Origin: Clostridia bacterium
GTDB taxonomy: Bacteria > Bacillota > Clostridia > Christensenellales > Borkfalkiaceae
Assembly: GCA_017626305.1 (NCBI GenBank)
Contig: JAGAIW010000074.1
Location: 1 to 48,295 of the forward strand
DNA: 48,295 nucleotides
Direction: 5' to 3'
Below the pieces are notes generated by a model that worked only from the letters and a program-made list of their open reading frames with translations, searched no databases and had not been told where the DNA came from. Made by a program: the position numbers and the translations under genes. This document shows, one piece after another, positions 2,118 to 22,606 of the stretch. The stretch's first letter is position 1. Each line of letters starts with the position of its first letter.

Positions 2118-2219
2118 ATAGTAAGTAAATCAAGCGCAAAACGTCAGACGCCGACGGTTCGGCGTATATTTTCGCGTTTTTGAAACTTGCCTAAAAAACA
2201 GGTTGTTACGAAGGAATTT

Positions 2220-4136
2220 ATGAAAAAAGCAAAAACCACAAAACTCAAAAACAGAATTCTCTTAATTTTGCTTGATATCGTGGCGGTGTTGTGCGCCGCC
2301 GTTTTGGCGTATTTTTCTACGAAGTTTGATTTGACTGCCCCGTCTATTCCTTCGTACGTTTACTGGGTGTGGCTGGGCGCAAATATCGTCCTTGCTATCG
2401 CGGTATTCGCCGTTTTCGGTCTATACTCGTTGGTGTTCAAATCTGCCAGCGTGTTAGACTTTTTCAAAATCGTTATCTCGTCGGTTACGATCGGCGCGGC
2501 AAACGTCGTATTTGCCATCGTTACCGAACGCGCGTATATCGACGTAGCGACATCCTTCGTGTACATGGTAACCCTTGCCATTATCGTCGGCGTTATCCGT
2601 TTTTCCGAGCGGATTATCGCCGCTATGAAATATTCCTTGGGGAACAACTTCGCACCTAAAAAACGTATCATGATCGTGGGCGGCGGCGACGCGGCGATTT
2701 CCCTTTTGAAAGAAATGCAATCGTCCGATAAAATCAACGTGCGTCCCGTTTGTATCGTAGACGACGACCCTGCCAAGAAAGGGGATATTATCGCAGGGGT
2801 GCGCGTTGTCGGTACGACGGCGGAAATTGAAACGTTTGCCAAAAAATTCATGGTAGAAGAAATCTTTATCGCCATTCCGTCGGCAAGCAAGAAACGGGTG
2901 AGTGAAATCGTCAAGCGCTGTCAAAGCGCGGGCTGTTCGGTAAAAATACTCCCTGGGATTTATCAATTCGTTTCGGGACAAATTACCGTTTCGCAATTTC
3001 GTGACGTGGACGTACAAGACCTTTTGGGGCGCGACCCCGTTCAGGTTAACCTTGACGAAATTATGGGCTATATCGAAGAGAAGGTCGTACTGGTTACGGG
3101 CGGCGGCGGTTCTATCGGCAGCGAGCTTTGTCGGCAGATTGCCACGCATAATCCCAAAACGCTGATTATTCTCGACATTTACGAAAACAACGCGTATGAA
3201 ATTGAACAGGAACTCAAAAGAAGAGATCCTGACCTGCGATTGCTTACGTTAATCGCCAGCGTACGCGACTCCAAGAAAATGCGGGACGTATTCCAAAGAT
3301 ACCATCCGCAAATCGTTTTCCACGCGGCTGCGCATAAGCACGTGCCTTTAATGGAAACCAGCCCCAACGAAGCGGTAAAAAATAACGTGTACGGTACGTG
3401 GAACGTAGCCAAATGCGCCGACGAATTCGGCGTGGAAACGTTCGTGCAAATTTCCACCGATAAAGCGGTGAACCCCACCAACATTATGGGCGCGACCAAG
3501 CGTATTTGCGAAATGATCGTGCAAACGATCGGTAAGCGCAGTAAAAACACCAAGTTCGTTGCGGTGCGGTTTGGAAACGTGCTCGGCTCGAACGGGTCGG
3601 TTATTCCGCTGTTTAAAAAGCAAATTGCCGACGGCGGACCTGTAACGGTCACGCATAAGGATATCATACGGTATTTTATGACGATTCCCGAAGCCGTTTC
3701 GCTCGTTTTGCAAGCAGGGGCGTATGCCAAGGGCGGACAAATCTTCGTGCTGGACATGGGCGAGCCCGTCCGCATTTACGATTTGGCGTATAACCTGATC
3801 AAGCTTTCGGGGTTCGAGCCCAACGTCGATATTGATATCGTATGCACGGGCTTACGACCCGGTGAAAAGCTGTATGAAGAACGGCTTATGGAAGAAGAAG
3901 GATTGACCAAAACGCCCAACGGCATGATCAATATCGCCAAGCCTATTCCGTTAAACGAAACGCGGTTTTGGTCGACTTTGGAACAGCTTTGCGACGAAGC
4001 GTATGCGGAAACGGACGACATGAAACGTTCGGTGAAAAAGCTCGTGCCCACCTATATCATTGACAAGCGCGATTCGGTGGCGGAAGCCCTGCGCGTTGCA
4101 AAAACAAAAAAAACAAAAGAAAAGGAAATAGAGTAA
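2220..4136 (+). CDS. Membrane-bound NDP-sugar 4,6-dehydratase (PglF/CapD/FlaA1 family)
   Basis: A 638-residue polysaccharide-biosynthesis protein. Four hydrophobic segments (about residues 10-140) precede a first Rossmann-like domain (IMIVGGGDAA near 156). The catalytic short-chain-dehydrogenase domain follows, with nucleotide-binding GGGGSIGSE near 295. This family has TDK in place of the usual catalytic tyrosine; here STDKAVNPTN lies near 412, followed by MGATKR. Long members of this family convert UDP-GlcNAc to the 4-keto-6-deoxy sugar at the membrane. The aminotransferase and the phosphosugar transferase follow at once, as in pgl-type loci, so it should make the precursor of the first sugar. 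An ORF start at TTG 2187 lacks a ribosome site, while ATG 2220 has AAGGAA just upstream, so I prefer 2220. This is the first gene of the operon. Confidence 0.88.
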   Translation: MKKAKTTKLKNRILLILLDIVAVLCAAVLAYFSTKFDLTAPSIPSYVYWVWLGANIVLAIAVFAVFGLYSLVFKSASVLDFFKIVISSVTIGAANVVFAIVTERAYIDVATSFVYMVTLAIIVGVIRFSERIIAAMKYSLGNNFAPKKRIMIVGGGDAAISLLKEMQSSDKINVRPVCIVDDDPAKKGDIIAGVRVVGTTAEIETFAKKFMVEEIFIAIPSASKKRVSEIVKRCQSAGCSVKILPGIYQFVSGQITVSQFRDVDVQDLLGRDPVQVNLDEIMGYIEEKVVLVTGGGGSIGSELCRQIATHNPKTLIILDIYENNAYEIEQELKRRDPDLRLLTLIASVRDSKKMRDVFQRYHPQIVFHAAAHKHVPLMETSPNEAVKNNVYGTWNVAKCADEFGVETFVQISTDKAVNPTNIMGATKRICEMIVQTIGKRSKNTKFVAVRFGNVLGSNGSVIPLFKKQIADGGPVTVTHKDIIRYFMTIPEAVSLVLQAGAYAKGGQIFVLDMGEPVRIYDLAYNLIKLSGFEPNVDIDIVCTGLRPGEKLYEERLMEEEGLTKTPNGMINIAKPIPLNETRFWSTLEQLCDEAYAETDDMKRSVKKLVPTYIIDKRDSVAEALRVAKTKKTKEKEIE

Positions 4137-6047: not shown

Positions 6048-6064
6048 AAAAAAGGAGCGACGTT

Positions 6065-7075: not shown

Positions 7076-7896
7076 GAAAAGTGGGCGACGAGCAAATGAA
7101 AGAAATTCAGCTGAATATTCTTTCCGAGATTGATAAAATATGCGCGGAAAACCATTTCCGCTATTCCTTGGCGTTCGGTACGCTGCTTGGCGCGGTACGG
7201 CATAAAGGGTTTATCCCTTGGGACGACGATATCGATATCGCTATGCCAAGAACGGATTACGATAAATTTATCGAATATTGCAAAGCGCACGAAACGTCTT
7301 TCCGTTTGGTTGCAAATGAAACGGATAAGCGGTATATTTATTTGTTCGCCAAAGCTTGTGCAAGAAATACGGTAGTGGAAGAAAACGTCGGCAACCGTTA
7401 CGGCTGTGAGCTGGGGGTTTACGTGGATATTTTTCCCATAGACGGCTTGGGCGATACGGAAAAAGGAGCGCAAAAGGCGTTTGAAAAACAACGTTTTAAT
7501 CGAGAGTTGCTGGTGGCGGCAAACTGGAAAAGGTTTTCGCGTAGCAAATCCCGCTCTTGGGTGTACGAGCCCATTCGCTTTGCGTTTTATCTATTCAGTC
7601 GATTTATCAATCCTGTCAAGCGCATGAAAAAAATTGAAAAATACTATCGGGATATTCCGTTTGACGGGGTAAAGTACGCAGGCATTATGTGCGGCGCGTA
7701 CCGCGCAAAAGAAATTATGGGGCAAGATATTTTCACGGAAACGGTAGCGTTGCCGTTTGAGAATAGAACCTTTCAAGCGTTTAAGGAATACGATAGATAT
7801 CTTACGCATTTATACGGCGATTACATGACGCCGCCGCCCAAGGAAAAACAGGTAACGCATCACGATTTTACGGCGTATTATAAGGACGAAGAGTAA
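7072..7896 (+). CDS. LicD-family phosphotransferase
   Basis: This 274-residue protein has the LicD signature: [14 protein letters not shown] at 33-46 followed by PWDDDIDI (D51, D52, D53, D55), the acidic metal-binding cluster of this nucleotidyltransferase fold. Later family-like pieces are [13 protein letters not shown] and the C-terminal [17 protein letters not shown]. Known LicD proteins transfer phosphocholine from CDP-choline to cell-surface glycans; relatives transfer other CMP-activated phospho groups. The operon encodes a phosphonate pathway with a LicC-like nucleotidyltransferase domain, so this protein is a good candidate for moving CMP-activated hydroxyethylphosphonate onto the polymer. 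That role is inferred. The gene overlaps both neighbours (ATGA before, TAATG after). Confidence 0.87.
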
Positions 7897-8957
7897 TGGT
7901 CATTTTGCATTTCGCAAGCATAAAAGACAATCCGTTTAACGGCGTTTGCGTCGTCGTGCCGCAGCATATTAAGGCGCAACAAAAGCTGGAAACGGTGGGC
8001 TTTATCAATCTTACCAACGTAAAAATAGACGGGGTAGAGAAACAGTTTTCCTATCAAAAGCCGTTTGCGTTTTCTAAGCTGTCCGCTCCGTTTGATAAAC
8101 CCGATTTGGTTGTTTTTCACGAAGCCTATCGAAAGGAATATTTGCAAATTTCCAAGGTGTTGAGAAGAGCGAAAATCCCGTATATTATCATTCCGCACGG
8201 AGAGCTTACTTTACAGGCGCAAAGAAAAAAACGTTTGAAAAAGACGGTGGCAAATATTTTGCTGTTTAACCGCTTTATCGGCGGCGCGAAAGCCGTACAA
8301 TGCTTATCTGAACGAGAGCTTGCAAACACTCGTTTCGGTAAAAAACGTTTCGTGGGTACAAACGGGATAGATATGCCGAAGACGGCAAAGCAAAGCTTTT
8401 CTTCCACGGGCGTGCATTTTGTCTATATCGGCAGGCTAGAAGTGGAAATAAAAGGCTTGGATATTCTTGCCGACGCCGTAGCCATGCAAAAAGAATTTTT
8501 GCGGGAAAATAGTTGCGTGGTGGATATGTACGGGCCTGATTATCAAGGTAGATTTGCGCGCGTGGAGAGCTTGATTGCTAAGCGGGATATCGGCGATATT
8601 TTGCGCTTGCATCGGGAAGTTACGGGCGAAGAGAAAGAACGAAAGCTTTTAGAAGGCGACGTATTTATACAAACGTCCCGTTCGGAAGGTATGCCGCTGG
8701 GGATATTAGAAGCTCTTTCTTACGGAATACCCTGTTTAATAACCAAAGGCACGACGCTTGCGGAAAAAGTAGAAAAAGCCGCGTCGGGTTGGGGCGCGGA
8801 AACGTCGGTATCGGGTGTTGCGTTGGCGTTAAAGCGTGCGGTAGAAGAAAAGGGTACGCTTGCGGAAAAATCCAAAAACGCGATAACGTACGTACAAAAA
8901 CATTTCACTTGGGATAAAATAGCAAAGGATACGTTAGAAATTTATAAGACGATTTGA
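7896..8957 (+). CDS. Family 4 glycosyltransferase (GT-B)
   Basis: A 353-residue GT4-type enzyme with an N-terminal acceptor domain beginning [18 protein letters not shown]. The donor domain begins with [19 protein letters not shown] near 170 and contains [20 protein letters not shown] near 255, the E-x7-E-type donor site. It should add one sugar of the repeat unit. The start overlaps the licD stop by one base (TAATG), which suggests translational coupling. The donor and acceptor cannot be read from sequence. Confidence 0.85.
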
Positions 8958-8976
8958 AAATGTATAGGATAAGCGT

Positions 8977-11094
8977 ATGATGCAAAAGAATTTGAGAGAT
9001 GTCCGTACAAATGAACACGGAAAATTAGAGATATACAGTCTGTGTTTCTATATATTATTACTCCCCGTAGCCACAGGTTTATCGGGGCTTATCGGGGATA
9101 TTTCTTTTTTGAATTATATCGCTATCTTTTATATTATTGAAACGTACATCAATCGAAGAATGCGACTTTCGTTTAAGAAAGAGTTTACCTTTTTATATGC
9201 GTATATGGGATATACGATTGTCAGCATTATTTGGAGTGGACAGTATGAAATATCGTGGTATATTACCACCTTTATGCTCAATGCGTTTATTGTGCTGCTT
9301 GCCGCTTCGCGGGAATATTCCGATTTGGAAAAGCAGTATATCCGCAACGCCGTTTATATCAGCGCGCTGTTCGTTATTTTTGTTGCGCTGCTCAATTTAA
9401 GTACGGCGAAAAATTTCCGTCTGGTCATTACATTGACAAGCAAAATGGATCCTAACGATTTTGGTTGCGGTTTATGTTTTATTTTGGCATATTTGTTAAA
9501 TGACGTGAAAAAGCACCGTAAATGGTTTCCGTGTTTGTGTATTTTTGCTCTTTTGGCAATTATTTTATTTACGGGCTCACGCGGAGCTATGTTGATGGCG
9601 GCGGCAGTCGTATTTGTTTGGGGACTGTATTTATTGAAAAGCGGACAATGGAAAAGCGTATTAAAAGTCGGTATCGTTGCTTTTATCATTCTTTCATTCG
9701 TATACGCCATGTTACCGGATTATTTGAAATCCCGTTTGGAAATAGGGGCTTTGTTGGCGGACGGCGGATCTGGACGCGGCAAAATTTGGGAACAGGCGTT
9801 ACTGACTTTTAGCCGTTCGGATAGTTTGCATCAATTATTCGGTTATGGGCACGGGTCATTTCAAACGGTAGTTAATTATAAGATGCCGTCGGGACATTTG
9901 TATCAGGCACACAATATGTTTATCAATGCGTTAATTGAAGGCGGCGTTATCGGTTTGGTGTTGCTTATTTTCGCGTTTGGCGCAGCGTTATGCCATGCGG
10001 CGAAAACAAAAAATCTGATTGCCTTTTTGGCAATCGTCGGTTTTGCGGTGGAAGGCATTTCGTTAGACGCACAGGTGTACCGTATTTTCCCTATCGTGTT
10101 TTTATCGCAAGCATTTTTCACCGAACGATCCGCTGGGTTAAAGGGACGCTCGTTTAAAAATAGCTTTAAGGTATCTATCATTATTCCCGTTTACAACGTG
10201 CAAGCGTATTTGCGCGAATGTTTAGACTCGGTATGCCAGCAAACGTTTGGTAATTTGGAAATTATTCTTATTGACGACGGTTCTACGGACGAAAGCGGAT
10301 TGATTTGCGACGAATACGCGCAAAAGGATAAACGGATTATCGTCGTGCATAAATCTAACGGCGGGCAGTCTTCTGCACGTAATTTAGGGATCCAAATGGC
10401 TAAGGGCGAATACGTTGCTTTTATCGACAGCGACGATTGCATAGCTCTTGATACCATTGAGCGGCTTGGCGAAACCATTGTAGGCTGTGATATTGCGGCT
10501 TGCGGTTTTACGGAAAATTTCCAAAAATTACAAGTGGGCAGTATTGCCGAAAAGGAAATTTTTTCTTCCGAAGAAGCCCTTTCCTTATTGTTTAGAGAAA
10601 AGGTTTTTATGGCTGCGCCTTGGAAAAAGCTCTTTAAGCGCGATTTGTTGAAAGGGATTGTTTTCCCCGAAGGAAAGATTTACGAAGATTACGGAACGAC
10701 GTATAAATGGTTTGACCGCGCGCATAAAATTTCCTTTATTAACGAAAAGAAATACTATTATCGCTATAATCCGACCAGCACCACGAAAAAGGGTTTCAAC
10801 CCCAAGCGGTTAGACTATTACGATATTACCGAAGATATTCTGCAATTCATGAAAAAGCAATATCCAAAGTTTGTCAAATACGTTCGACGTCATATGGTAC
10901 GAAATACGATAGCCTTTTTTAGAGAAATGGTAAGTTGCGATTATTATGACGACGAAGTGGAAACAAAATTCCGTACGATTATTAAAGAAGGGATATGGGA
11001 TTATTTGTTTAGCGGTTATAAACTGTTGAGTAAAGCCTACGGGCTATGTATTCTAATTTCGCCCAAGTTGGCGCGGAAAATTTTCAAAAGATAA
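8977..11094 (+). CDS. Fusion: O-antigen polymerase/ligase-like membrane domain plus GT2 glycosyltransferase
   Basis: The 705-residue protein has two parts. Residues about 20-390 form roughly ten hydrophobic segments with the Wzy/WaaL-type landmark FTGSRGAMLMAAAVVFVWG near 195 and a large loop around 245-320. From about 398 a GT2 domain begins with VSIIIPVYNVQAYLRECLDS. It continues with IDDGSTDESG and the metal site AFIDSDDC near 481-488, and runs to the C-terminus. Wzy proteins polymerise lipid-linked repeat units outside the membrane while GT2 enzymes act inside, so the fusion couples two steps on opposite faces. The frame is continuous with no sign of sequencing error. AGGA lies about 8 bp before the ATG. 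A second polymerase-like fusion is encoded at 18031. Confidence 0.82.
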   Translation: MMQKNLRDVRTNEHGKLEIYSLCFYILLLPVATGLSGLIGDISFLNYIAIFYIIETYINRRMRLSFKKEFTFLYAYMGYTIVSIIWSGQYEISWYITTFMLNAFIVLLAASREYSDLEKQYIRNAVYISALFVIFVALLNLSTAKNFRLVITLTSKMDPNDFGCGLCFILAYLLNDVKKHRKWFPCLCIFALLAIILFTGSRGAMLMAAAVVFVWGLYLLKSGQWKSVLKVGIVAFIILSFVYAMLPDYLKSRLEIGALLADGGSGRGKIWEQALLTFSRSDSLHQLFGYGHGSFQTVVNYKMPSGHLYQAHNMFINALIEGGVIGLVLLIFAFGAALCHAAKTKNLIAFLAIVGFAVEGISLDAQVYRIFPIVFLSQAFFTERSAGLKGRSFKNSFKVSIIIPVYNVQAYLRECLDSVCQQTFGNLEIILIDDGSTDESGLICDEYAQKDKRIIVVHKSNGGQSSARNLGIQMAKGEYVAFIDSDDCIALDTIERLGETIVGCDIAACGFTENFQKLQVGSIAEKEIFSSEEALSLLFREKVFMAAPWKKLFKRDLLKGIVFPEGKIYEDYGTTYKWFDRAHKISFINEKKYYYRYNPTSTTKKGFNPKRLDYYDITEDILQFMKKQYPKFVKYVRRHMVRNTIAFFREMVSCDYYDDEVETKFRTIIKEGIWDYLFSGYKLLSKAYGLCILISPKLARKIFKR

Positions 11095-11135
11095 CATTGT
11101 GTAATTTACGTCAATAAAAATGGGAGATTTTATAA

Positions 11136-12341
11136 GTGAACGGCTTAAAAAAACTATGGATTTGCTTTGTGAACCGTTTGTTGCCTGTCCGAAAAAAGAC
11201 GATTCTGTTTTATTCTTTTTCTGGACAGTTCAACGATAATCCCAAAGCAATTTTTGAGAAGTTATATCAGCGAGAGCCAAAATTGAATATCGTATGGGTA
11301 ACGTCTTCCAAAACCATAGAAACATTTCCTTCTTACGTGCAAACGGTAGAAAATGAATCGAAAGACTATTATCGCAATCTTATGCGCGCGCAAATCGTCG
11401 TGGATAACTACGTAGGTCTTCGTTTATCCACGGAAAACGGTTTTTTAGAAAGGTTTAGAAGAAGAATTTTCGTCAAAAAAAGAAAGTCGCAATTATGTAT
11501 TTCCACGTGGCACGGCACGCCGTTAAAAAGAATAGGTATCGACGCTTTAAGCGGCTCGGAAAGAAAAGCGTGCTATTATACCTGTTCAGATTATATCGTG
11601 GCAGGCTGCAATCTTACCAAAAATGCTTTGGAATCGGCATATTATCACAGCGTTCCTGTGAAAATGTATGGTACGCCGCGCAACGATATTTTATTAGATA
11701 AAACAGTTGACGTAACAAGAGTCAAGGAAAAGCTAGGTGTTGCAAAGAACTATAAGGTCGTTTTATTCGCTCCGACCTTCCGCAACAGCGTAGAGTATAG
11801 CGGCGTGAAACAAATGAGCGAGTGGGATTTTGAAAAACTGTTTTCCGCCTTGCAAAAACGATTTGGCGGTGAGTGGTGCTTTGTTTTCCGTGTGCATCAT
11901 ATGGTGCTTAAAGCCATTGACGTGGAAGGGATTGCGGCAAAATACGGCGGGCGTATCTTAAACGGGAATTTGCACGACGATATGGCGGAATATCTGCTTT
12001 GCGCCGACGTACTTATCTCCGACTATTCGGGATCTATCTTCGATTATGCGCTGACGGGAAAACCCTGTTTCTTGCTTGCCCCCGATAGAGAGCATTATGA
12101 AAAGAGCGAAAGGGGTTTTTACTTGGATTATGATAAGCTGCCTTTCCCCACGGCGGTAAACAGCGAAGGCTTAAACGATAAGATTGCTGCGTTTGACGGG
12201 CAAAAATACCAAGAAGGCGTCAAGACGTTTTTGAGCGAAATCGGTAACGTAGAAGACGGACGGGCGTCGGAACGCATTGTAGACGACGTACTGGACTTTA
12301 TACAAAAAAGAAAAACAAAAAAAGAGGTAATAAATACATGA
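11136..12341 (+). CDS. CDP-glycerol:glycerophosphotransferase-like protein (TagB/TagF family)
   Basis: A 401-residue protein with the poly-glycerophosphate-transferase fold: VDNYVGLRLS near 88, the hallmark STWHGTPLKRIGIDAL near 122-137, then YGTPRNDILL, LFAPTFRNS and the C-terminal DVLISDYSGSIFDYAL. Family members transfer glycerol- or ribitol-phosphate from the CDP-linked form to teichoic-acid-type polymers. In this operon it might use a CMP-activated phosphonate or CDP-glycerol. The following gene encodes both a LicC-like and a TagD-like domain, so neither donor can be excluded. Start is GTG at 11136 with GGGAG upstream. The stop overlaps the next start by 4 bp. Confidence 0.82.
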   Translation: MNGLKKLWICFVNRLLPVRKKTILFYSFSGQFNDNPKAIFEKLYQREPKLNIVWVTSSKTIETFPSYVQTVENESKDYYRNLMRAQIVVDNYVGLRLSTENGFLERFRRRIFVKKRKSQLCISTWHGTPLKRIGIDALSGSERKACYYTCSDYIVAGCNLTKNALESAYYHSVPVKMYGTPRNDILLDKTVDVTRVKEKLGVAKNYKVVLFAPTFRNSVEYSGVKQMSEWDFEKLFSALQKRFGGEWCFVFRVHHMVLKAIDVEGIAAKYGGRILNGNLHDDMAEYLLCADVLISDYSGSIFDYALTGKPCFLLAPDREHYEKSERGFYLDYDKLPFPTAVNSEGLNDKIAAFDGQKYQEGVKTFLSEIGNVEDGRASERIVDDVLDFIQKRKTKKEVINT

Positions 12342-14347
12342 AAGCATTGATTTTGAATTCGGGTTTGGGACACCGTATGGGTGTTTTGACCAGCGAACAT
12401 CCCAAGTGTATGACGGAAGTTTCCGCAAAGGATACCATTTTATCCCGTCAGCTGAAAATGATTGCCGAAGCGGGCATTCAAGAAGTGGTGATGACGACGG
12501 GGTATTTTGACGAAATTCTCGTCAACTATTGCCGTTCGTTACACTTGCCTTTGAAATTTACGTTCGTCAACAATCCGTTGTACGCGCAAACCAACTATAT
12601 TTATTCTATCTATTGTGCAAAAGAAGTGCTCAAAGACGACGATATCGTTCTTATGCACGGGGATTTGGTGTTTGCTGCGGACGTATTTGACTCGGTACTT
12701 GAAAGCGAAGTCAGCTGCATGACGGTCAGCACCACGTTGCCTTTGCCTGAAAAAGATTTTAAAGCGGTGATTCAAGACGGGCAAATTAAAAAGGTCGGCA
12801 TTGAATTTTTTGACGACGCTTTGGCGGCGCAGCCCTTATATAAATTGAACAAAAAAGATTGGAACGTTTGGCTGGACGAAATTTGCAAATTCTGCGAATC
12901 GGACAATAGAAAATGCTACGCGGAGAACGCGTTTAACCAAGTTTCCGACGCTTGCGTGATTATGCCCTTGGACGTTCAGGACAAGCTTTGTGGTGAAATC
13001 GATACGCCCGAAGATTTGGAAATCGTCGCGGCGAGAGTGAAAGAGCTGGAAGACAAAACGGTGTATATGTGCTTTTCCACCGATATGCTGCACAGCGGAC
13101 ATATTGCCATTATCAAAAAAGCCAAAAAGCTTGGCAGATTGATTGTCGGCGTTTTATCGGACGAAGCGATTGCAAGCTATAAACGTTTCCCGTTAATGCC
13201 GTTTGCCGAACGTAAATCCTTGTTTGAAAATATCAACGGCGTAGCGGCGGTTGTGGAACAAAAAGAGCTTAGCTATAAAAACATTTTGACGGACTTAAAG
13301 CCCGATTACGTCGTACACGGCGACGATTGGAAAACGGGTTTCCAAAAACCCATTCGCGACGAAGTGCTGGCTGTTTTGCAAAGCTACGGCGGCGAGCTTA
13401 TCGAGTATCCCTATTCCAAAGACGAAAAATACGACGAGCTGGAAAAGAACTCCCGGTTACAGCTCGCTATGCCCGACGCGCGCCGTGGCAGATTGAAAAA
13501 GTTACTTGCCATGAAGGGCTGTGTTACGGCGATCGAAGCGCACAGCGGTATTACGGGCTTGATTGCGGAAAAGACCACCGTTTTACAGGACGGTAAAACC
13601 TATCAATTCGACGCCATGTGGGTGTCTAGTCTTTGCGATAGTACGGCAAAGGGTAAGCCCGATATCGAGCTTGTCGACATGACGTCCCGTTTCCGTACGA
13701 TTGACGATATCATGGAAGTTACGACAAAACCCATTATTTTTGACGGGGATACGGGCGGACTTACCGAACACTTCGTTTATACCGTAAAAAGCTTGGAACG
13801 TATGGGCGTATCCATGGTGATTATCGAAGATAAAACGGGCTTGAAAAAGAACTCCCTGTTCGGTACGGAAGTGGAGCAAACGCAGGACAGCATTGAAAAC
13901 TTCTCCGAAAAAATCCGCGCAGGTAAGCGTGCGCAAAAGACCAAGGACTTCATGATTTGCGCGCGTATCGAAAGCTTGATTTTAGAGCGCGGTATGGAAG
14001 ACGCGTTAGAGCGTGCGTTTGCATTTGCAGACGCAGGCGCGGACGCAATCATGATTCATAGCCGTAAAAAAGACCCTGCGGAAATTTTTGAATTCGTGGA
14101 AAGATTCCGCGCAAAGGACAGCGCTACGCCGATCGTCGTTGTGCCTACGTCTTTCAATTCGGTTACCGAAGAAGAATTCAAGGCACGCGGGGTGAACGTC
14201 GTTATTTATGCAAACCAACTTACCCGCAGCGGTTTCCCCGCTATGCAAAACGTAGCGAAAACCATTCTCACCAACCACAGGGCAAAGGAAGCGGACGATA
14301 TGTGTATGTCCATTAAAGAAATCATTACCCTGATTCCGGAGGAATAA
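12338..14347 (+). CDS. Three-domain phosphonate protein: LicC-like nucleotidyltransferase, TagD-like cytidylyltransferase, phosphoenolpyruvate mutase
   Basis: This 669-residue protein carries three enzyme domains in one frame. Residues 1-235 are a sugar-nucleotidyltransferase fold (LNSGLGHRMG, HPKCMTEV, MHGDL at 106-110) like LicC/PntC, which load phosphocholine or phosphonates onto CMP. Residues 241-365 resemble a TagD/cytidylyltransferase fold with HSGH at 252-255 and VVHGDDWKTG near 325. The usual ISTT/ISST motif that should follow (near 360) is not seen, so this domain may be altered or inactive. Residues 385-669 are PEP mutase, with IIFDGDTGG near 466 and the signature EDK-x5-NS at 497-506. 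PEP mutase isomerises PEP to phosphonopyruvate, the entry step to nearly all natural phosphonates. The decarboxylase and reductase genes lie downstream. The start overlaps the upstream stop (ATGA). Confidence 0.9.
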   Translation: MKALILNSGLGHRMGVLTSEHPKCMTEVSAKDTILSRQLKMIAEAGIQEVVMTTGYFDEILVNYCRSLHLPLKFTFVNNPLYAQTNYIYSIYCAKEVLKDDDIVLMHGDLVFAADVFDSVLESEVSCMTVSTTLPLPEKDFKAVIQDGQIKKVGIEFFDDALAAQPLYKLNKKDWNVWLDEICKFCESDNRKCYAENAFNQVSDACVIMPLDVQDKLCGEIDTPEDLEIVAARVKELEDKTVYMCFSTDMLHSGHIAIIKKAKKLGRLIVGVLSDEAIASYKRFPLMPFAERKSLFENINGVAAVVEQKELSYKNILTDLKPDYVVHGDDWKTGFQKPIRDEVLAVLQSYGGELIEYPYSKDEKYDELEKNSRLQLAMPDARRGRLKKLLAMKGCVTAIEAHSGITGLIAEKTTVLQDGKTYQFDAMWVSSLCDSTAKGKPDIELVDMTSRFRTIDDIMEVTTKPIIFDGDTGGLTEHFVYTVKSLERMGVSMVIIEDKTGLKKNSLFGTEVEQTQDSIENFSEKIRAGKRAQKTKDFMICARIESLILERGMEDALERAFAFADAGADAIMIHSRKKDPAEIFEFVERFRAKDSATPIVVVPTSFNSVTEEEFKARGVNVVIYANQLTRSGFPAMQNVAKTILTNHRAKEADDMCMSIKEIITLIPEE

Positions 14348-14348
14348 G

Positions 14349-15452
14349 GTGGCGCAAACGATTATTTTTGGCAACGACGCTTACAAAAAAATAGGGGACG
14401 CTTTGCGCGAATGGGGCGTAAGTAAATACCTGTTAGTGTGTGGAAATTCCTTTGATAAATTGCCCGTAGCGGCGTATCTTGCATCTTTGGATATTCCCTG
14501 CGTACGCTTTGGCGGATTTACGTCAAACCCCAAGTACGAAGAAGTATGCGAAGGGGTAAAGCTGTATCGAAAAGAGGGCTGTAACGCAATCGTTGCCGTC
14601 GGCGGCGGCAGCCCCATTGACGTGGCAAAGTGTATTAAGCTCTACGCCAAAATGCCCGACGATAGACTGTATTTGGAGCAGGAATATACGGATACGGGTA
14701 TCCCTTTAATCGCCATGCCCACGACGGCAGGCACGGGGAGCGAATCTACGCGATTTGCCGTCATTTATCGCGGCGGCATCAAACAATCGGTGCACCATGC
14801 AAGCATTTTGCCAAATTATGCGATTTTGTGCGCGGATACGTTAGAACACTTGCCCGTGTATCAAAAGAAATGCACCCTGCTTGACGCGCTTTGTCAAGCG
14901 ATAGAATCTTGGTGGTCGGTATATTCCACCGCCGAGAGCATTTCCCTTGCCAAGCAAGCAACGGCGCTTTTGATGCAATACGCAAGAGAATACGTGTTTG
15001 AAAATACTCCTTGCGCAAGAGAACGTATCATGCAAGCGTCCAACTTGGCGGGACAAGCCATTCATATTACGTCGACGACGGCGGTACACGCCATGAGCTA
15101 TAAAATGTCGTCCACGTACGCCATTCCGCACGGTCACGCCGTAGGGATAGGCTTGCCCAAGTGTTGGCGGTATATGCAAGCGCATATAGACGATTGCACG
15201 GACAAGCGCGGCGCGGGCTATTTGCAGAGCATATTTGACGAAATTGCCAAAGCGCTTGGCGGAAATACCGTCGAAGAAGGGATTGCCGTGTTTGAAAAGT
15301 TGCTTGCCGACTTGCAAATAAGCGCGCCCAAAGCAGAGCCGTCCGATTTGGATATTTTAGTGGCGTCGGTGAATACCGATAGATTGAAAAACAACCCCGT
15401 AGACGTTTCTAAGGGCTTGAAAGAAATATATCAAAATATTTTAGATTTGTGA
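14349..15452 (+). CDS. Iron-containing alcohol dehydrogenase, probable phosphonoacetaldehyde reductase
   Basis: A 367-residue group III (iron-type) alcohol dehydrogenase: VAVGGGSPIDVAKC near 79-92 (NAD(P) site), PTTAGTGSES near 126, and the metal-ligand region THAMSY-like VHAMSYKMSS followed by IPHGHAVGI. In phosphonate clusters this family reduces phosphonoacetaldehyde to 2-hydroxyethylphosphonate (PhpC-type activity). It sits between the PEP mutase and the phosphonopyruvate decarboxylase genes and there is no AEP transaminase gene, so that role fits well. Start is GTG at 14349, one base after the upstream stop, with GGAGG at 14338-14342. The substrate is inferred from context. Confidence 0.82.
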   Translation: MAQTIIFGNDAYKKIGDALREWGVSKYLLVCGNSFDKLPVAAYLASLDIPCVRFGGFTSNPKYEEVCEGVKLYRKEGCNAIVAVGGGSPIDVAKCIKLYAKMPDDRLYLEQEYTDTGIPLIAMPTTAGTGSESTRFAVIYRGGIKQSVHHASILPNYAILCADTLEHLPVYQKKCTLLDALCQAIESWWSVYSTAESISLAKQATALLMQYAREYVFENTPCARERIMQASNLAGQAIHITSTTAVHAMSYKMSSTYAIPHGHAVGIGLPKCWRYMQAHIDDCTDKRGAGYLQSIFDEIAKALGGNTVEEGIAVFEKLLADLQISAPKAEPSDLDILVASVNTDRLKNNPVDVSKGLKEIYQNILDL

Positions 15453-15465
15453 ACGTTTAAAGGCT

Positions 15466-16899
15466 ATGAACATATTCCGTAAATTACAACAGTTACCGCA
15501 AAGTGTGAAGGCGTCTATCGCGTTTGCGTTTGCCAGCTTTGTCGCTAGCGGTATCTCATATATCGTAACGCCCATTTATACGCGGCTGTTATTACCCGAA
15601 GAATACGGACAAACTTCGGTATTTATGACGTGGTTGGAAATTTTCGGAATTATGGCAATGTTTTGTCTTTCGTACGGCGTGTTTAATAACGGCATGGTGG
15701 ACTATCCCGAAAAACGGGACGAATATTCCTTTTCCATGCTCATTCTTTCCAACATTATCACCCTGTGCTTTTCGGGAATATTGCTGTGCTTATATCCCTT
15801 GATAGCTGAATGGTTAAAGCTGGATTTTGCTTTTATCGTACTCATGTGTATCGTATTTATGGTACAGCCTGCGTATAACTTTTGGAAAGCCAAACAACGC
15901 TATGAATTAAAGTATAAACTTACCGTATGCGTATCCGTGTGCGCGTCCATTTTATCTCCGCTCACGGCAATTGTTTGCATTTTGGCAAATCCGTCCGCCC
16001 CCGTATACGGGAGAATTTTCGGCGCGGAGATTGCGCTCATTTGCGTGTACGTCGTCTTTTATATCGTACTTGCCGTAAAAAGCAAGTGCAAAATCAATAC
16101 TACGTACTGGAAAGCCGCGCTGCTTTTTAACTTGCCGCTCATTCCCCATTATTTATCCGTTTATCTTTTGGGGAGCTCGGATAAGCTGATGATTTCGTGG
16201 TTGGTTGGCGACGCGCAAACGGCGTACTATTCCGTAGCCCACTCGGTGGCGGCGGTGGTGACGATTGTATGGGGCGCTATCAATTCTTCACTTATTCCCT
16301 ATACTTACGAAAAGTGTAAAAAGGAAGACTTCGAGCCCATTTCCCGTGTGACGTTACCGCTTTTGACGTTATTTGCCACGGTGTGCGTACTGCTGATTAT
16401 GCTTGCGCCCGAAGTGGTGGCGGTTATGGCAACGGCGGATTATATGGAAGCCATTTACGCGATACCGCCTATCGTCGGCGGCGTATTCTTCCAAGTACAA
16501 TATTATATTTACGCCAACGTGGTGTATTATTATAAAAAGCCCAAGTACGTTATGATAGCTAGCTTGACTTCGACGGTTTTGAATATCGTACTCAATTATA
16601 TTTTCATTTCGCAGTTTGGGTATTTAGCGGCAGGGTATACGACGATATTCTGTTACTTCGTGCAAGCGACGATTGATTATTTCGCTATGCGCAAAGTGGT
16701 AGGACGGAATATTTATAACATGCGCTATATCGGCGTTTTGTCCCTTGCCGTCGTGCTAATTGCGCTGTTTAGTAATCTCATTTACGGCTATGCGATTGTG
16801 CGGTATATCGTTTTGGCGGTAATCGTCGTCGTATGCATTTTACTTCGGAAAAAAATTATCGGTTTATTTACGACTATGAAAGGAGAGAAAAAGTCATGA
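15466..16899 (+). CDS. Wzx-type polysaccharide flippase (MOP superfamily)
   Basis: The 477-residue protein is almost wholly hydrophobic, with about 12-14 membrane segments. It starts with the typical KASIAFAFASFVASGISYIV and TPIYTRLLLPEEYGQTSVF of oligosaccharide flippases, and shows LLGSSDKLMISWLVG near 235. It should flip the undecaprenyl-linked repeat unit to the outer face for the polymerase. Unusually, it lies between phosphonate genes (reductase upstream, decarboxylase downstream) and overlaps the decarboxylase start by 4 bp, which ties the phosphonate pathway to polymer export. Confidence 0.9.
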   Translation: MNIFRKLQQLPQSVKASIAFAFASFVASGISYIVTPIYTRLLLPEEYGQTSVFMTWLEIFGIMAMFCLSYGVFNNGMVDYPEKRDEYSFSMLILSNIITLCFSGILLCLYPLIAEWLKLDFAFIVLMCIVFMVQPAYNFWKAKQRYELKYKLTVCVSVCASILSPLTAIVCILANPSAPVYGRIFGAEIALICVYVVFYIVLAVKSKCKINTTYWKAALLFNLPLIPHYLSVYLLGSSDKLMISWLVGDAQTAYYSVAHSVAAVVTIVWGAINSSLIPYTYEKCKKEDFEPISRVTLPLLTLFATVCVLLIMLAPEVVAVMATADYMEAIYAIPPIVGGVFFQVQYYIYANVVYYYKKPKYVMIASLTSTVLNIVLNYIFISQFGYLAAGYTTIFCYFVQATIDYFAMRKVVGRNIYNMRYIGVLSLAVVLIALFSNLIYGYAIVRYIVLAVIVVVCILLRKKIIGLFTTMKGEKKS

Positions 16900-18002
16900 A
16901 ACTCGATTTCTTAAACACATTTGAATTTTTTACGGGTGTACCCGATTCACAACTTCGTCCGCTTTGCGATTATCTGATGCAAAAATACTGCATTTCCGAT
17001 AAGCACGTTATCGCGGCAAATGAAGGCAACGCCGTAGCGCTTGCGGCGGGGTATCACTTGGCGACGGGAAAAGTGCCCGTCGTGTATATGCAAAACAGCG
17101 GTATCGGCAACGTAGTCAATCCCGTAGCGTCGCTTATGAACGATAAAGTATACGCGATTCCCTGCGTGTTTATCGTGGGTTGGCGCGGCGAACCGGGCGT
17201 GCACGACGAACCGCAGCATATCTATCAAGGGGAAGTTACCATCAAGCTTTTGGAAGATATGGATATTCAAACGTTTGTCATTTCCAAGGAAACGACGGAA
17301 GAAGAAGTGCAGGCGCAGCTTGAAAAATGGCAGCCCCGACTTGCAGCAGGCAAGCAGGTGGCGTTCGTCGTGAAAAAAGGCGCGTTGCAGTTCGACGGCA
17401 AGGTTCAATATAAAAATAAAAACGACATGACGCGTGAAGATATCCTTCGTCATATCGTTGCCGTAACGGGCGAAGACCCTATCGTTTCCACGACGGGTAA
17501 GGCTTCGCGTGAGCTCTTTGAAATCCGTGAAGCCAACGGACAGGGACACGGCTACGATTTTCTTACCGTGGGTTCTATGGGACATAGTTCGTCTATTGCT
17601 TTGGGGATAGCCCTGCAAAAAAAGGATAAAAAGGTATGGATTATCGACGGCGACGGCGCGGTGCTTATGCATATGGGCAGCATGGCGGTGCTGGGGGCAA
17701 ACGCACCCAAAAACGTCGTGCATATCGTTATCAATAACGGCGCGCACGAAACGGTGGGCGGTATGCCGACGGTAGCGCAGGAGCTGGATTTTGTACAAAT
17801 GGCAAAAGCCTGCGGCTATAAAAAGGCGGTATCGGTCAATTCTTGGGGCGATTTAGATGATCAATTGTATTATGCAAAAACAGCCAACGAACTTTTCTTG
17901 ATTGAAGTAAAATGCTCTATCGGGGCGAGAGAAGACCTTGGCAGACCGACGACGACGGCAAGAGAGAATAAAGAAGGATTCATGAAACAACTCGCTTTAT
18001 AA
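16896..18002 (+). CDS. Phosphonopyruvate decarboxylase
   Basis: A 368-residue thiamine-diphosphate enzyme that converts phosphonopyruvate to phosphonoacetaldehyde, making the unfavourable PEP mutase step irreversible. The N-terminal half carries the catalytic glutamate E43 in AANEGNAVALAAGYHLATGK and the family segment VYMQNSGIGNVVNPVASL. The C-terminal half has the ThDP/metal motif GDG at 252-254 with NN at 280-281. GWRGEPGVHDEPQH near 95-108 is typical of this family. The open frame reaches back to 16833, but ATG at 16896 has AGGAGAG upstream and overlaps the wzx stop (ATGA). The N-terminus MKLDFLNTFEFFTGVPDS also matches the family. Confidence 0.93.
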   Translation: MKLDFLNTFEFFTGVPDSQLRPLCDYLMQKYCISDKHVIAANEGNAVALAAGYHLATGKVPVVYMQNSGIGNVVNPVASLMNDKVYAIPCVFIVGWRGEPGVHDEPQHIYQGEVTIKLLEDMDIQTFVISKETTEEEVQAQLEKWQPRLAAGKQVAFVVKKGALQFDGKVQYKNKNDMTREDILRHIVAVTGEDPIVSTTGKASRELFEIREANGQGHGYDFLTVGSMGHSSSIALGIALQKKDKKVWIIDGDGAVLMHMGSMAVLGANAPKNVVHIVINNGAHETVGGMPTVAQELDFVQMAKACGYKKAVSVNSWGDLDDQLYYAKTANELFLIEVKCSIGAREDLGRPTTTARENKEGFMKQLAL

Positions 18003-18030
18003 GCGTGGGAATGAGTAGCGGAATTGCAGT

Positions 18031-20829
18031 ATGATAAAAAGTATTAAAGACAATATAACGTACTTGGCGGAAAACGTCGGGGTATTACGTGCCATAGAAC
18101 GGTTTTTAAGCAGTCGCTGGTTTTTAGGACTGCTTGCCGTGTTTATTTTCGTCGTGCAGGCAATGGGGTGGGACTTAGTCGGTTTCGCCGTGCTTGCGCT
18201 GATTTTCGTCTATATTTGTCTTTTCTGTAAAGGCACGAACGGCACCGTTCCTATCCTTTGTATGGCGACGTTTTGCGTATCTATACAAAATAGCCCCGCG
18301 AAAAATGCGTCGGGTTTCCATTTGCTTGGCAAGTGCGATTATTTTGTCGGCGAAGCGTCTAAATTTTACGGCTCGCCCGCCTTTATCTTTACGGCGGCAA
18401 TCTTTGGCTCAATGGTTGCAACGGCACTATTATTCCGTTTGCTTACGTTTGGCGATTTCAAGCGCGCGTTCTCGCCGCGCGGACTGCTTATCGGCATTAG
18501 CATGGTGGCGGTGTCGTTCTTGCTTTCGGGGATAGACGCAGGCGGCGACGAAAAGGCTAACCTTATCTTTGGCGCGGTGCAAGCGGCGACCTTCTTCTTT
18601 GTGTATTTGTTTTTATCGACGACGCTCGATTACGATACGTTTAGCTTTGATTATATTGCCAACGTCATGCTAACCATTATGTTTTATATTATGGCGTTGC
18701 TTGCCTATATTTACGCAACGCGTTTCGGCGGATTTTTGATTTTGAGCTCTAAATGGAAGGTGTATATCCTTTCAGGCTGGGGCATGAGCTTGGATTTTGG
18801 CAGTTATCTTGCCATGACGATACCCGCTTGGTTTTATAAAATGCTCCGCTCGGATAAAATGAAACTCTTTTGGCTGAGTATTGCCTTAGTGGCTACGGCG
18901 GCAATTTATTTCACGTTGGCGCGTGGGTCAATGATTGTTGCGGGCGTGGAAATTTTAGTCGGCTTGATTATTGCTTTCCGCGAACGTAAGACCCGTCGTA
19001 AGGTATTTTACGTCCTGTTGGCGGCAGTCAGTATTATCGCGGTGCTTTTGTTTGTGCTTTGGAAAACGGATACGTTTCAGTACTTTTTCGACTACTTTAT
19101 CGAAAAGGAAAGCACGGGCGAAGCCGGTGGCGACGTCAGCAGCGGACGCTGGACGATTTGGGGAAGATACTGGGGCTATTTCTTGGAAAATCCCGTTTTC
19201 GGCGGCGGCTTTACCGTAGACCTTCGAGAAAGTGTTGCGCAGTTTGGCAACCCCAACAACGGTATTTTCAGCGCGTATTCCTATTTGGCGCACAACCTGC
19301 TTTTCCAAATTTTAGGTAGCTGCGGAATCGTGGGCGTTATCGCTATGGCGATACATCTTTTGGGCGTGCTCCGCGTGATGCTTTCCAAGGCGGACATCTC
19401 GCGCGCGTTTATCGTATTATCCATATGTGGATTTTTGGCAATGTCGCTATTGGATACTATTTTCTTTAAAGCGCAATTTACGTTTTTGTATCTTGCCATG
19501 TTGGTGGCGATAGAAGCAGACGTGCGCCGAAAGGTAGAAAAGCTCCGCGCGGCAGAACGCAACACCCGTACGACCTTGGAAAAGGTAAACGGCGTAGAAA
19601 AACCCCGCGTCGTGTTTGCGTTTGTCGAAGCAGGTATGGGTCATATTATGCCTGAACGCTCTTTGGCGGACGCGTTTGAAGAAAAGTACGGGGATCGTTG
19701 TACGGTTATCCGTTCTCGGTTTTTTAGCGAAACTAACGAGCAATCCTTGCTTACGCTGGAAGAAAGCTTTGTCCGTGAAGTGAAAAAATATAACCGCAAC
19801 TGGGTGTACGGCTATTTGAATATGTATATGATGGACATTCTTGGTGCGACGTTCCTGTCTAAGATTATCATGGACGCGTACGTGCCCGGGGCGAGAGAAC
19901 AAGCGTTGTTGCATATGAAAGCGCTTGACCCCGATATGGTCGTCAGTACGCATTGGTCTACCAACTATTACGCAGAACAAATTCAAAACAATAAACCGCT
20001 TACGGTTACGTATATCCCCGACGTGCAAACCATTCCGCTGTTTAACTATCGTTCGGACATGACGCTGATGAACTCCAAACGCGGGTACGAACGTACGTTG
20101 AAAAAATACAAACGCCGTTATAATACGGATAATTTGCGGATGGTGCCGTTTGCTATCCGAAAAGAAGCGTTTGATATTCCTATGGATAAAAAAATCAACC
20201 GTCGCCAACTGGGGCTTGACGAAGATAAAATGACGATCGTCATGTTTGAAGGCGGCTACGGTTTGGGTAGAATGGGTAAAATCGCTACGCTGCTTGCGAA
20301 GAAAGATTTGCCGTTGAACGTAGTTATTATTTGCGGAAAAAATGAAAAACTGTACAAAAAGCTTTCTAATTTGCAAACGGGTGAAAATTGCAACCTGATT
20401 GTGGAAGGTTTTTGCGATAAGACGTTGGAATACTTGGCGGCGGCAGACGTGTTCTTAGGCAAGAGCGGCGCTTCGTCCGTGGCAGAAGCAGCCTTCTTCG
20501 GTTTGGCGTCGATTATCACTAAATATGCGACGTCTATGGAACGGGATAATGCGGAGTATTATATCAAAGACGTGAAAAACGCGGTGAAGATATTCTCGCC
20601 AAAACGCGTTGTCGAACAGTTAGAAGAATGGCTTAACGCGCCTGAAAAGCTCAAAACGTTGCAGGACAATGCGCTTGCATACCGTAAGTATTACGGTTCG
20701 GAAGCGTCGGCGGACGTGCTTTGGGAGATGCTTTGTAAGAAATATCCGCAGCTTTTAGCTGCGCCGTTGGATACCCAAGCGCCCACGAAATTAGAAGGCA
20801 GAAAAGATAAAAAACGCAAACGCAGCTAA
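18031..20829 (+). CDS. Fusion: O-antigen polymerase/ligase-like membrane domain plus GT28/MGDG-synthase-like glycosyltransferase
   Basis: The 932-residue protein begins with a large membrane domain (about 25-490, some 12 hydrophobic segments). Its Wzy/WaaL landmark is FTLARGSMIVAGVEILVG, and a large extracytoplasmic loop near 365-430 contains SSGRWTIWGRYWGYF. From about 520 a GT-B domain follows that resembles MGDG synthase/GT28: FAFVEAGMGHIMPERSLADAF, then YIPDVQT, and the donor-site motif GKSGASSVAEAAFFGLASII near 810. The tail is Lys/Arg-rich. Both halves are in one uninterrupted frame. It is the second polymerase-glycosyltransferase fusion of the operon, with a glycosyltransferase from a different family. 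It is the last gene of the operon; I see no clear terminator after it. Confidence 0.82.
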   Translation: MIKSIKDNITYLAENVGVLRAIERFLSSRWFLGLLAVFIFVVQAMGWDLVGFAVLALIFVYICLFCKGTNGTVPILCMATFCVSIQNSPAKNASGFHLLGKCDYFVGEASKFYGSPAFIFTAAIFGSMVATALLFRLLTFGDFKRAFSPRGLLIGISMVAVSFLLSGIDAGGDEKANLIFGAVQAATFFFVYLFLSTTLDYDTFSFDYIANVMLTIMFYIMALLAYIYATRFGGFLILSSKWKVYILSGWGMSLDFGSYLAMTIPAWFYKMLRSDKMKLFWLSIALVATAAIYFTLARGSMIVAGVEILVGLIIAFRERKTRRKVFYVLLAAVSIIAVLLFVLWKTDTFQYFFDYFIEKESTGEAGGDVSSGRWTIWGRYWGYFLENPVFGGGFTVDLRESVAQFGNPNNGIFSAYSYLAHNLLFQILGSCGIVGVIAMAIHLLGVLRVMLSKADISRAFIVLSICGFLAMSLLDTIFFKAQFTFLYLAMLVAIEADVRRKVEKLRAAERNTRTTLEKVNGVEKPRVVFAFVEAGMGHIMPERSLADAFEEKYGDRCTVIRSRFFSETNEQSLLTLEESFVREVKKYNRNWVYGYLNMYMMDILGATFLSKIIMDAYVPGAREQALLHMKALDPDMVVSTHWSTNYYAEQIQNNKPLTVTYIPDVQTIPLFNYRSDMTLMNSKRGYERTLKKYKRRYNTDNLRMVPFAIRKEAFDIPMDKKINRRQLGLDEDKMTIVMFEGGYGLGRMGKIATLLAKKDLPLNVVIICGKNEKLYKKLSNLQTGENCNLIVEGFCDKTLEYLAAADVFLGKSGASSVAEAAFFGLASIITKYATSMERDNAEYYIKDVKNAVKIFSPKRVVEQLEEWLNAPEKLKTLQDNALAYRKYYGSEASADVLWEMLCKKYPQLLAAPLDTQAPTKLEGRKDKKRKRS

Positions 20830-20947: not shown

Positions 20948-22543
20948 ATGCAATATCAACGTTTTGGCGTTATGCTAGATATGTCCCGTAACGCCGTTAT
21001 GAAGGTGGAACAGGTCAAACGCATGATCGATTGTCTTGCGAAAATGGGCTACAACACGTTAGAGCTGTATTGTGAAGACACGTATGAGTTAGACGGCGAA
21101 CCGTATTTTGGGTATTTGCGCGGTAGATATACGGCGGAAGAACTCAAAGAAATAGACGCGTATGCGACGCAAAAGGGCATAGAGCTTATTCCCTGTATTC
21201 AAACGCTGGCGCACTTTACTAACCTTGTACGCCACCCTGCGTATTACGATATGGTTGACGTCAACGATATTTTACTTATTGACGAACCGAAGACGTACGA
21301 ACTCATTGAAAAGATTTTTGCTATGCTTGCCGATACCTTTACGTCAAGAAACGTGAATATCGGTATGGACGAAGCGCATATGGTCGGTCGTGGAAAATAC
21401 ATGGATAAGCACGGCTACGTCGAACGGTACGATTTGCTTGTACGCCATTTACAGAAAGTGGCGGAAATTGCCGCAAAATACGGCTTTAAAGCGCATATGT
21501 GGAGCGATATGTTCTTCCGTATTGCGTCAAATGGCGATTATTACGGAAACGGGGAAATCCCTGAACACGTTAAAAAATGTTTGCCTGAAAACGTGGATCT
21601 TACGTACTGGGATTATTATCACACCGATAAACCTTCGTACGATAGATTGTTCGATAGACATTTGGAATTTGGTCACGACGTATGGTTTGCGGGCGGCGCA
21701 TGGACGTGGGTAGGGTTTGCGCCGCTGTTATCGCAAACGGTGGCGTCTATGAAACCGGCTATGCAAAGCGTAGTAGAAAAGGGGATTAAAAACGTACTCA
21801 TCACCATGTGGGGAGATAACGGTAAAGAATGTTCGTTTTTTGCTATGTTGCACGGTTTGTACGCCATTCGTCAATATGCGGACGGTAACTTCGACGACGA
21901 AAGGATAGCCAAAGGCTTTGAAGAAACGTTCGGCGTTTCGTATGCCGATTTTGCGTTGCTTGATCTTCCGAATAAACCGTATGAAGAATACGATATCACC
22001 ACGCCTTTGGCGGTGTCGAAAGCTATGCTGTATGCCGACCCGTTTATGGGTTGGCTGGATAAAAATATATCCAACTTCCCCACGTTTACGTACGGCAAGT
22101 ATGCGGATATGCTCGCCGAAGCGGCGACGCGCGCCAAAGAATACGGCTATATCTTTGATTGCACGTCCAAGCTTTGCAAGGTGTTGGATATCAAGGCGGA
22201 GCTTGGTATTCGCGTGCGTAAAGCGTACCAAAACGGCGACCGCGCGGCTTTGGGCAAGCTTGTGGACGAAATGACGGCTTTGGAAAGCCGTTTGCAGGTA
22301 TTCCACCAAGCTTTTGCTCTACTTTGGTATAAGGAAAATAAAGCGCACGGCTTTGAAGTGCAGGACGCGCGTATCGGCGGTTTGATACAACGTGTCCGCA
22401 CCTGTAAAGGGCGTTTGCAGGCGTATCTTGCGGGTGAGATAGAAAGCTTAGATGAATTACAAGAAGAAATTTTAGAATATTTTGGCGGCAAACGGTTGGG
22501 ACATAACAGCTACACGCAGCTGATTACAATGTCGCATATGTAA
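20948..22543 (+). CDS. GH20-type beta-N-acetylhexosaminidase-like protein, cytoplasmic
   Basis: The 531-residue protein has a GH20-like TIM barrel from its N-terminus without the usual N-terminal accessory domain: GVMLDMSRNAVMKVEQVK, YNTLELYCEDTYE, then ELIPCIQTLAHF near 79-90. The probable catalytic Asp-Glu pair is D141-E142 in IGMDEAH. GH20 enzymes remove terminal beta-GlcNAc or beta-GalNAc by substrate-assisted catalysis. There is no signal peptide. It is followed by a GH109-type gene, so the pair fits intracellular removal of beta- and alpha-linked HexNAc. ATG at 20944 is out of frame; 20948 has the right spacing to AAGGAG. The linkage actually cut is not determined. Confidence 0.75.
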   Translation: MQYQRFGVMLDMSRNAVMKVEQVKRMIDCLAKMGYNTLELYCEDTYELDGEPYFGYLRGRYTAEELKEIDAYATQKGIELIPCIQTLAHFTNLVRHPAYYDMVDVNDILLIDEPKTYELIEKIFAMLADTFTSRNVNIGMDEAHMVGRGKYMDKHGYVERYDLLVRHLQKVAEIAAKYGFKAHMWSDMFFRIASNGDYYGNGEIPEHVKKCLPENVDLTYWDYYHTDKPSYDRLFDRHLEFGHDVWFAGGAWTWVGFAPLLSQTVASMKPAMQSVVEKGIKNVLITMWGDNGKECSFFAMLHGLYAIRQYADGNFDDERIAKGFEETFGVSYADFALLDLPNKPYEEYDITTPLAVSKAMLYADPFMGWLDKNISNFPTFTYGKYADMLAEAATRAKEYGYIFDCTSKLCKVLDIKAELGIRVRKAYQNGDRAALGKLVDEMTALESRLQVFHQAFALLWYKENKAHGFEVQDARIGGLIQRVRTCKGRLQAYLAGEIESLDELQEEILEYFGGKRLGHNSYTQLITMSHM

Positions 22544-22572: not shown

Positions 22573-22606
22573 GGGTAAAAATATAAAAATAGTAGGTGGA
22601 CGAACA

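Follow-up and report, generated by a model that had tools for sequence, protein, structure and literature searches.

The window, the whole stretch of 48,295 nucleotides that was analyzed, is one entire contig of a 2.55 Mb, 95%-complete genome. From position 2187 to 20829 it carries 13 genes on the + strand with intergenic gaps of -55 to +41 bases. Most of these genes belong to Wzx/Wzy polysaccharide synthesis, and phosphonate genes are embedded among them. The features, with the three domains of one fusion gene given separately, are:

2187..4136, + strand: membrane nucleotide-sugar 4,6-dehydratase (CapD/PglF type) for the first sugar; PF02719, 405.6 bits
4149..5357, + strand: DegT/DnrJ sugar aminotransferase; PF01041, 317.5 bits
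5358..6047, + strand: initiating sugar-phosphate transferase (Bac_transf); PF02397, 192.5 bits
5993..7075, + strand: GT2 glycosyltransferase, real start likely 3' of the listed TTG; PF00535, 88.3 bits
7072..7896, + strand: LicD-family phosphotransferase, candidate HEP transferase; PF04991, 160.9 bits
7896..8957, + strand: GT4 glycosyltransferase; PF00534, 60.7 bits
8977..11094, + strand: Wzy-like polymerase fused to GT2; PF04932, PF00535
11136..12341, + strand: TagF-type transferase, second candidate HEP transferase; PF04464, 244.1 bits
12338..13042, + strand: triple fusion, domain 1, LicC/PntC-like cytidylyltransferase with His107, predicted CTP:HEP cytidylyltransferase; PF12804
13052..13420, + strand: triple fusion, domain 2, Fom1-type cytidylyltransferase (CyT) domain; 5x3d, 132.6 bits
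13493..14344, + strand: triple fusion, domain 3, PEP mutase; TIGR02320
14349..15452, + strand: iron alcohol dehydrogenase (ADH), predicted phosphonoacetaldehyde reductase; PF00465
15466..16899, + strand: Wzx flippase; PF01943 and PF13440, both above cut-off
16893..18002 (start 16893 preferred over 16833), + strand: phosphonopyruvate decarboxylase (Ppd); TIGR03297, 480.2 bits
18031..20829, + strand: Wzy-like polymerase fused to a GT28-type glycosyltransferase; PF04932, PF04101

An earlier note on this DNA had placed a 2-hydroxyethylphosphonate (HEP) pathway at 12338..18002, within one operon with Wzx, Wzy-like and glycosyltransferase genes; both the coordinates and the layout are correct. The flippase gene, which it described as lying between the reductase and decarboxylase genes and overlapping the latter, does so by 7 bases with the likely ppd start at 16893. 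The TagF-type and triple-fusion genes overlap by 4 bases. Two Wzy-like polymerases occur in this one operon, each fused to a glycosyltransferase (GT2 in 8977-11094, GT28 type in 18031-20829). The operon is flanked by genes for the glycoside hydrolases GH123, GH20, and GH109 (336-1982, 20948-22543, 22565-23860), all of which are tied to N-acetylhexosamines. Scanned against Rfam, the window produced no match over the gathering scores.

The ORF at 12338-14347 encodes an N-terminal LicC/PntC-like nucleotidyltransferase (NTase, residues 1-235, PF12804), the middle CyT domain (residues 239-361), and the PEP mutase (residues 386-668). All three enzymes named in the earlier note were recovered: the PEP mutase with its EDK-x5-NS motif (407 bits to TIGR02320, cut-off 319.6; EDK-TGLKK-NS in the translation), Ppd (cut-off 312.5), and the iron-type ADH (140 bits to PF00465, cut-off 31.3; PF25137 also above cut-off). 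Since the ADH scored 122.9 bits against the 423.7 bits set for the curated phosphonate iron-ADH equivalog TIGR03405, it is classed only as working like a phosphonoacetaldehyde reductase, a predicted role that draws on context and on its PGAP name. One motif position of this ADH, which we take to be that of the metal-binding His in many iron ADHs, is Gln in the window; among 83 relatives it was Gln in 45 and His in 33, and the motif was absent from five. The note had also called for genome searches for enzymes that would change the end product, and in this 95%-complete genome neither an AEP transaminase (best match 30.6 of 360.8 bits) nor a phosphonatase (best match 33.7 of 220 bits) exceeded its cut-off. 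The AEP transaminase of AEP-tailoring (Pnt) operons was accordingly not detected, and both a plain AEP pathway and phosphonatase degradation in place of synthesis were rejected on these scores. Its view that a surface polymer carries HEP and not AEP is supported by these absences, with which the comparative neighborhoods agree. Beyond what it described are the NTase and Fom1-type domains in the PEP mutase ORF and the LicD and TagF-type genes in the operon.

For comparison, TIGR02320 was searched in 151 family genomes (10 above cut-off) and 391 class genomes (32 above cut-off), two samples that share four genomes, and 37 stretches around matches above cut-off outside the window were fetched and their frames called. 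No match was found in the 18 other genomes of the same genus listed in the family search. Triple fusions made up 13 of 39 in the family and class sample, window included; a 2019 count, in the available part of the article (PMC6697681, cited throughout from that part), gave 42 PF12804, PF01467, and PEP mutase triple fusions among 1485 PEP mutases. EDK-x5-NS was kept in 72 of 73 triple fusions, the exception being L087, whose locus has neither ADH nor Ppd and whose genome has no Ppd above cut-off. Triple fusions lacking an ADH in the fetched stretch were L055:7486-9519, L087:10001-12010, and L135:1458-3467. Xylanibacter ruminicola D31d (G556) has two triple-fusion copies with equal scores, on contigs C7 and C8. 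The architecture raises the question of why two cytidylyltransferase folds should sit on one polypeptide.

The NTase domain has the LicC/PntC fold and the G-x-G-x-R...PK motif; its PDB relatives by sequence are LicC and 6pd1, and its model (pLDDT 92.6) has 6pd2 as top PDB match. In a HMMER alignment with 6pd1, His107 falls on the acidic Glu104 of Treponema denticola PntC, a residue that the authors of that study place near the AEP amine (PMC6697681). At the sampled loci, which were drawn by PEP mutase and not by NTase, this one column separates NTases with His (His type) from those with Glu (Glu type). His was present in 19 of 19 His-type sets, all with HGD, and an iron ADH lay in the locus in 17 of them, the exceptions being L055 (none in 18 kb) and L056 (contig ends just past the PEP mutase); the stretches of L066, where the contig ends, and of L069 contain no Ppd. 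Every locus with a Glu-type NTase of the two AEP clades (11 of 11) also had an AEP transaminase; four of the transaminases were tested with TIGR03301 and exceeded its cut-off, the remainder were found by BLAST to those four, and the third-clade Glu-type loci L047, L049, L064, and L067 were excluded. Counting these four, the residue was Glu in 15 of 15 and a transaminase was present in 11 of 15, or in 11 of 12 with L047, L049, and L064 treated as below the score limit. Neither transaminase nor ADH was found in the fetched stretches of the four, which carry, beside the third Glu-type NTase, a 393-395-aa protein without clear family, together with an epimerase and a metallophosphatase in L047; these sets perhaps serve a third phosphonate product or decoration. 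At L053, a His-type and a Glu-type set lie adjacent, and the Ppd frame of the HEP set is short (207 aa). The ADH neighborhood thus replaces the AEP transaminase neighborhood as a set. When 51 NTases of the His type and 15 of the Glu type were placed in a tree, a branch (96/89) set all His-type sequences apart; the program warned of unsettled bootstraps and of long branches meeting. Because the His type forms one clade, the association of residue and neighbors counts as one evolutionary event, not many. This exchange of a single residue in the predicted activating enzyme seems to be new; a search of the open-access literature recognized no HEP-specific PntC, which is weak evidence of absence.

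Fusions of the NTase offer a second view of its partner. In L052 (561 aa) and L080 (L080:2268-5861, 1197 aa, which also carries a GT2 glycosyltransferase) the NTase is joined directly to the iron ADH, with no CyT domain. Single NTase-CyT-ADH frames of 761-770 aa, with the ADH at about residues 400-760, were found at L109:9986-12298, L134:9986-12298, L160:10001-12286, and L142:10001-12292. Each is followed by a separate CyT-PEP mutase, and L109, L134, and L160 also have an AEP transaminase. PntC of T. denticola is comparably fused to its AEP transaminase (PMC6697681). The fusions link the NTase to what the ADH produces. Both ADH and AEP transaminase are present at L144, and the entire L109 and L144 genomes gave no Ppd above cut-off. 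At L070:9082-15712, a PEP mutase lies next to an HMGL-like synthase, a full-length TPP enzyme, and an iron ADH, which looks like a different phosphonate pathway.

The His-type alignment, scanned against named genomes, confirmed at least 519 relatives. The best 80 loci, which were taken further, came from Clostridia and Bacteroidales, largely in rumen and gut assemblies. Three (L111, L123, and L146), whose contigs match class-sample contigs in length, were removed as duplicates before counting, and the remaining 77 scan loci plus the class sample gave 96 His-type loci: PEP mutase was present in 86, ADH in 80, Ppd in 75, and AEP transaminase in five. Since the 77 were picked by likeness to the His type, they show spread and neighbors, not frequency. 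Whole-genome searches of 45 related triple-fusion genomes found no AEP transaminase above cut-off (0 of 45) and a weaker match in two. We chose these genomes from the best 80 loci after leaving out L109, L134, L144, and L160, which have a transaminase in the locus, and the loci of the 15-genome search below, so the result says that triple-fusion genomes are usually without AEP transaminase, not that none has one.

Fifteen His-type scan genomes were searched for PEP mutase; seven have one and eight have none. These eight also gave no Ppd above cut-off and no close relative of the ADH (0/8; controls 3/3). Their loci, all among the best 80 (L086, L092, L096, L107, L117, L126, L138, and L141), have a His-type NTase either alone or as NTase-CyT, and the genomes are MAGs with no stated completeness. 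LicD is present in three (L086, L096, and L107). At L126, an APH-type kinase encoded two genes downstream could supply another phosphate. The eight NTases were scattered in several places within the His clade, a pattern resembling repeated loss of the phosphonate genes or repeated borrowing of the NTase. Their genomes suggest use of scavenged HEP or of another substrate and make the HEP specificity of the His type less than certain. Among 395 genomes of a Bacteroidia PEP mutase sample, only the center genome itself exceeded the cut-off, and the sample therefore adds no independent test. Searches of plasmid and phage records returned one near relative, on a Segatella plasmid, and, under the name 'Bacteriophage sp.', two unannotated records in which a related fusion occurs. 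Cultured carriers are Segatella copri DSM 18205, Clostridium symbiosum ATCC 14940, and X. ruminicola D31d.

The genome has no LicD match other than the one in the operon (PF04991 cut-off 22.6) and no PF04464 match other than the TagF-type gene, and no TagD exceeded its cut-off there, the best score (48.3 of 165.4 bits) belonging to the middle CyT domain. With CDP-glycerol as the alternative considered, this combination makes CMP-HEP the likely donor for either LicD or the TagF-type enzyme. Neither gene is universal: among 95 His-type loci, with L053, which has neither, counted apart, LicD occurred in 36, TagF in 17, and one or the other in 46.

Taken with the neighborhoods, these data favor an operon that encodes the synthesis of HEP, its activation to CMP-HEP, and its transfer onto a surface polysaccharide of the Wzx/Wzy type; we consider this the probable reading. 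HEP itself is, by comparison, a well-supported predicted product. PEP would be converted to phosphonopyruvate by the PEP mutase domain (domain 3), phosphonopyruvate to phosphonoacetaldehyde by Ppd, and phosphonoacetaldehyde to HEP by the iron ADH. The N-terminal LicC/PntC-like domain, with His107 in its pocket replacing the Glu that holds the amine of AEP, would then form CMP-HEP from HEP and CTP. LicD or the TagF-type enzyme would move the HEP-phosphonyl group off CMP and onto a repeat-unit sugar or polyol, giving a glycan ester before Wzx flips the unit. The fused NTase and LicD/TagF probably supply the activation and transfer steps that the earlier note lacked. What the sequences establish is gene content, family membership, co-occurrence, and the residue switch; from these we infer each of the reactions, what accepts the HEP, and that the polymer lies at the surface.

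The middle domain allows two other assignments. Its family is PF01467 (CTP_transf_like) and its best PDB match the Fom1 cytidylyltransferase 5x3d (128.5 bits), and when taken alone it scored 132.6 bits to 5x3d and 39.9 to TagD. Fom1 makes CMP-HEP (PMC6697681), so the middle domain could be what activates the HEP made here, leaving the N-terminal NTase to activate something else for the same polymer. Retention of HxGH in 73 of 73 triple fusions (HSGH in the window) would fit this, as would the His-type NTases of the eight genomes with no detected PEP mutase, Ppd, or close ADH. Yet where 5x3d reads PYTPGISST the window reads YPYSKDEKYDELE, and in a pattern search none of the 73 triple fusions matched GISST, a nucleotide-binding motif. 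AEP-type CyT domains of the larger group also lack GISST, and a G(V/I)S motif is kept in L052, L054, L057, L060, L063, and L080. L069 pairs an AEP-looking CyT domain with a His-type NTase and an ADH, which speaks against the CyT domain setting the product, and L052 and L080 dispense with it altogether; activation by the middle domain is thus unlikely. The overlap of the TagF-type gene with the fusion gene, and the fact that the middle domain is the only TagD-like match in the genome, could instead point to a teichoic-acid-like operon in which this domain makes CDP-glycerol for the TagF enzyme and the phosphonate route is an unrelated neighbor. The scores, far below the TagD cut-off and well above TagD for Fom1, make this very improbable, and CDP-glycerol teichoic acid was rejected as the purpose of the domain. 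The middle domain probably began as a HEP cytidylyltransferase that would now be impaired or altered; that its activity is at present lost or altered is a guess.

The product and its destination may also be read otherwise. An unrecognized aminotransferase could yield AEP or another aminophosphonate, with the ADH doing another job: a single 95%-complete genome could miss a gene, a DegT aminotransferase is encoded in the operon, and five of the 96 His-type loci do have an AEP transaminase. But none was detected above cut-off here or in the 45 related genomes, chosen without the four transaminase-bearing loci; the DegT enzyme is grouped with the sugar dehydratase and the initiating transferase, as in sugar pathways; and the amine-contacting Glu of the NTase is replaced by His. 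We regard this reading as very improbable. Alternatively, HEP could be a free, secreted, or lipid-linked product and not a polysaccharide decoration, given that the acceptor is not readable from sequence and that small molecules or phosphonolipids are the products of certain PEP mutase clusters. Against this, the phosphonate genes are intermixed, in a tight run, with wzx, both wzy-like genes, and genes for glycosyltransferases, LicD, and TagF, and the same gene set likewise lies within a polysaccharide locus in S. copri, so that this alternative seems rather unlikely.

The predicted decoration of a polysaccharide with HEP has known parts. As in the Pnt pathway of T. denticola (PntC-AEPT, PMC6697681), there are a PEP mutase, Ppd, a LicC-like cytidylyltransferase, and a nearby LicD, with cytidylyl activation; unlike it, the window has an ADH for the AEP transaminase, His for Glu104, and HEP as predicted substrate. 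The available part of that article contains no test of HEP with a PF12804 enzyme. The Lic phosphocholine pathway (LicC, LicD) shares the fold and the logic of cytidylyl activation and LicD transfer, whereas the substrate predicted here would be made de novo by way of PEP mutase, and the operon genes examined include no choline kinase or importer. Fom1 of fosfomycin biosynthesis (5x3d) likewise has a PF01467 domain ahead of PEP mutase and HEP as substrate, but no extra N-terminal NTase is described there, the window domain lacks GISST, and neither methyltransferase nor epoxidase was found among the operon genes examined. The phosphonoglycans of the Actinobacteria Glycomyces and Stackebrandtia reportedly carry HEP on exopolysaccharide. 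Both triple fusions and HEP glycans are therefore already known. A near counterpart is on the S. copri DSM 18205 plasmid NZ_CP085933.1, where a triple fusion 80% identical over 669 aa is followed by Ppd, phosphonoacetaldehyde reductase, a CDP-glycerol glycerophosphotransferase family protein, O-antigen polymerase, and flippase. S. copri belongs to the Bacteroidota, and identity to the window drops to 43-52% for the four partner proteins that were compared, among them the ADH, there named phosphonoacetaldehyde reductase (47%), and Ppd (52%). The fusion has consequently either been under much stronger constraint than its partners or moved on its own.

More tentatively, and only if several parts hold jointly, the His107-type PntC may be a separate HEP-specific tailoring branch of gut Clostridia and Bacteroidales that moves between phyla. 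Its middle domain would no longer catalyze cytidylyltransfer and would have been retained in a different role, and the genomes without phosphonate genes would use scavenged HEP or a non-phosphonate substrate. To our knowledge, AEP on the Bacteroides fragilis capsule is the main known case of phosphonate-decorated glycans in gut bacteria. This B. fragilis case appears in the available part of a 2025 review on surface polysaccharides in the gut. If the HEP reading is true, many gut and rumen bacteria, cultured carriers included, would have HEP-tailored surfaces, and a single cytidylyltransferase residue would predict whether a decoration is aminated and zwitterionic or amine-free.
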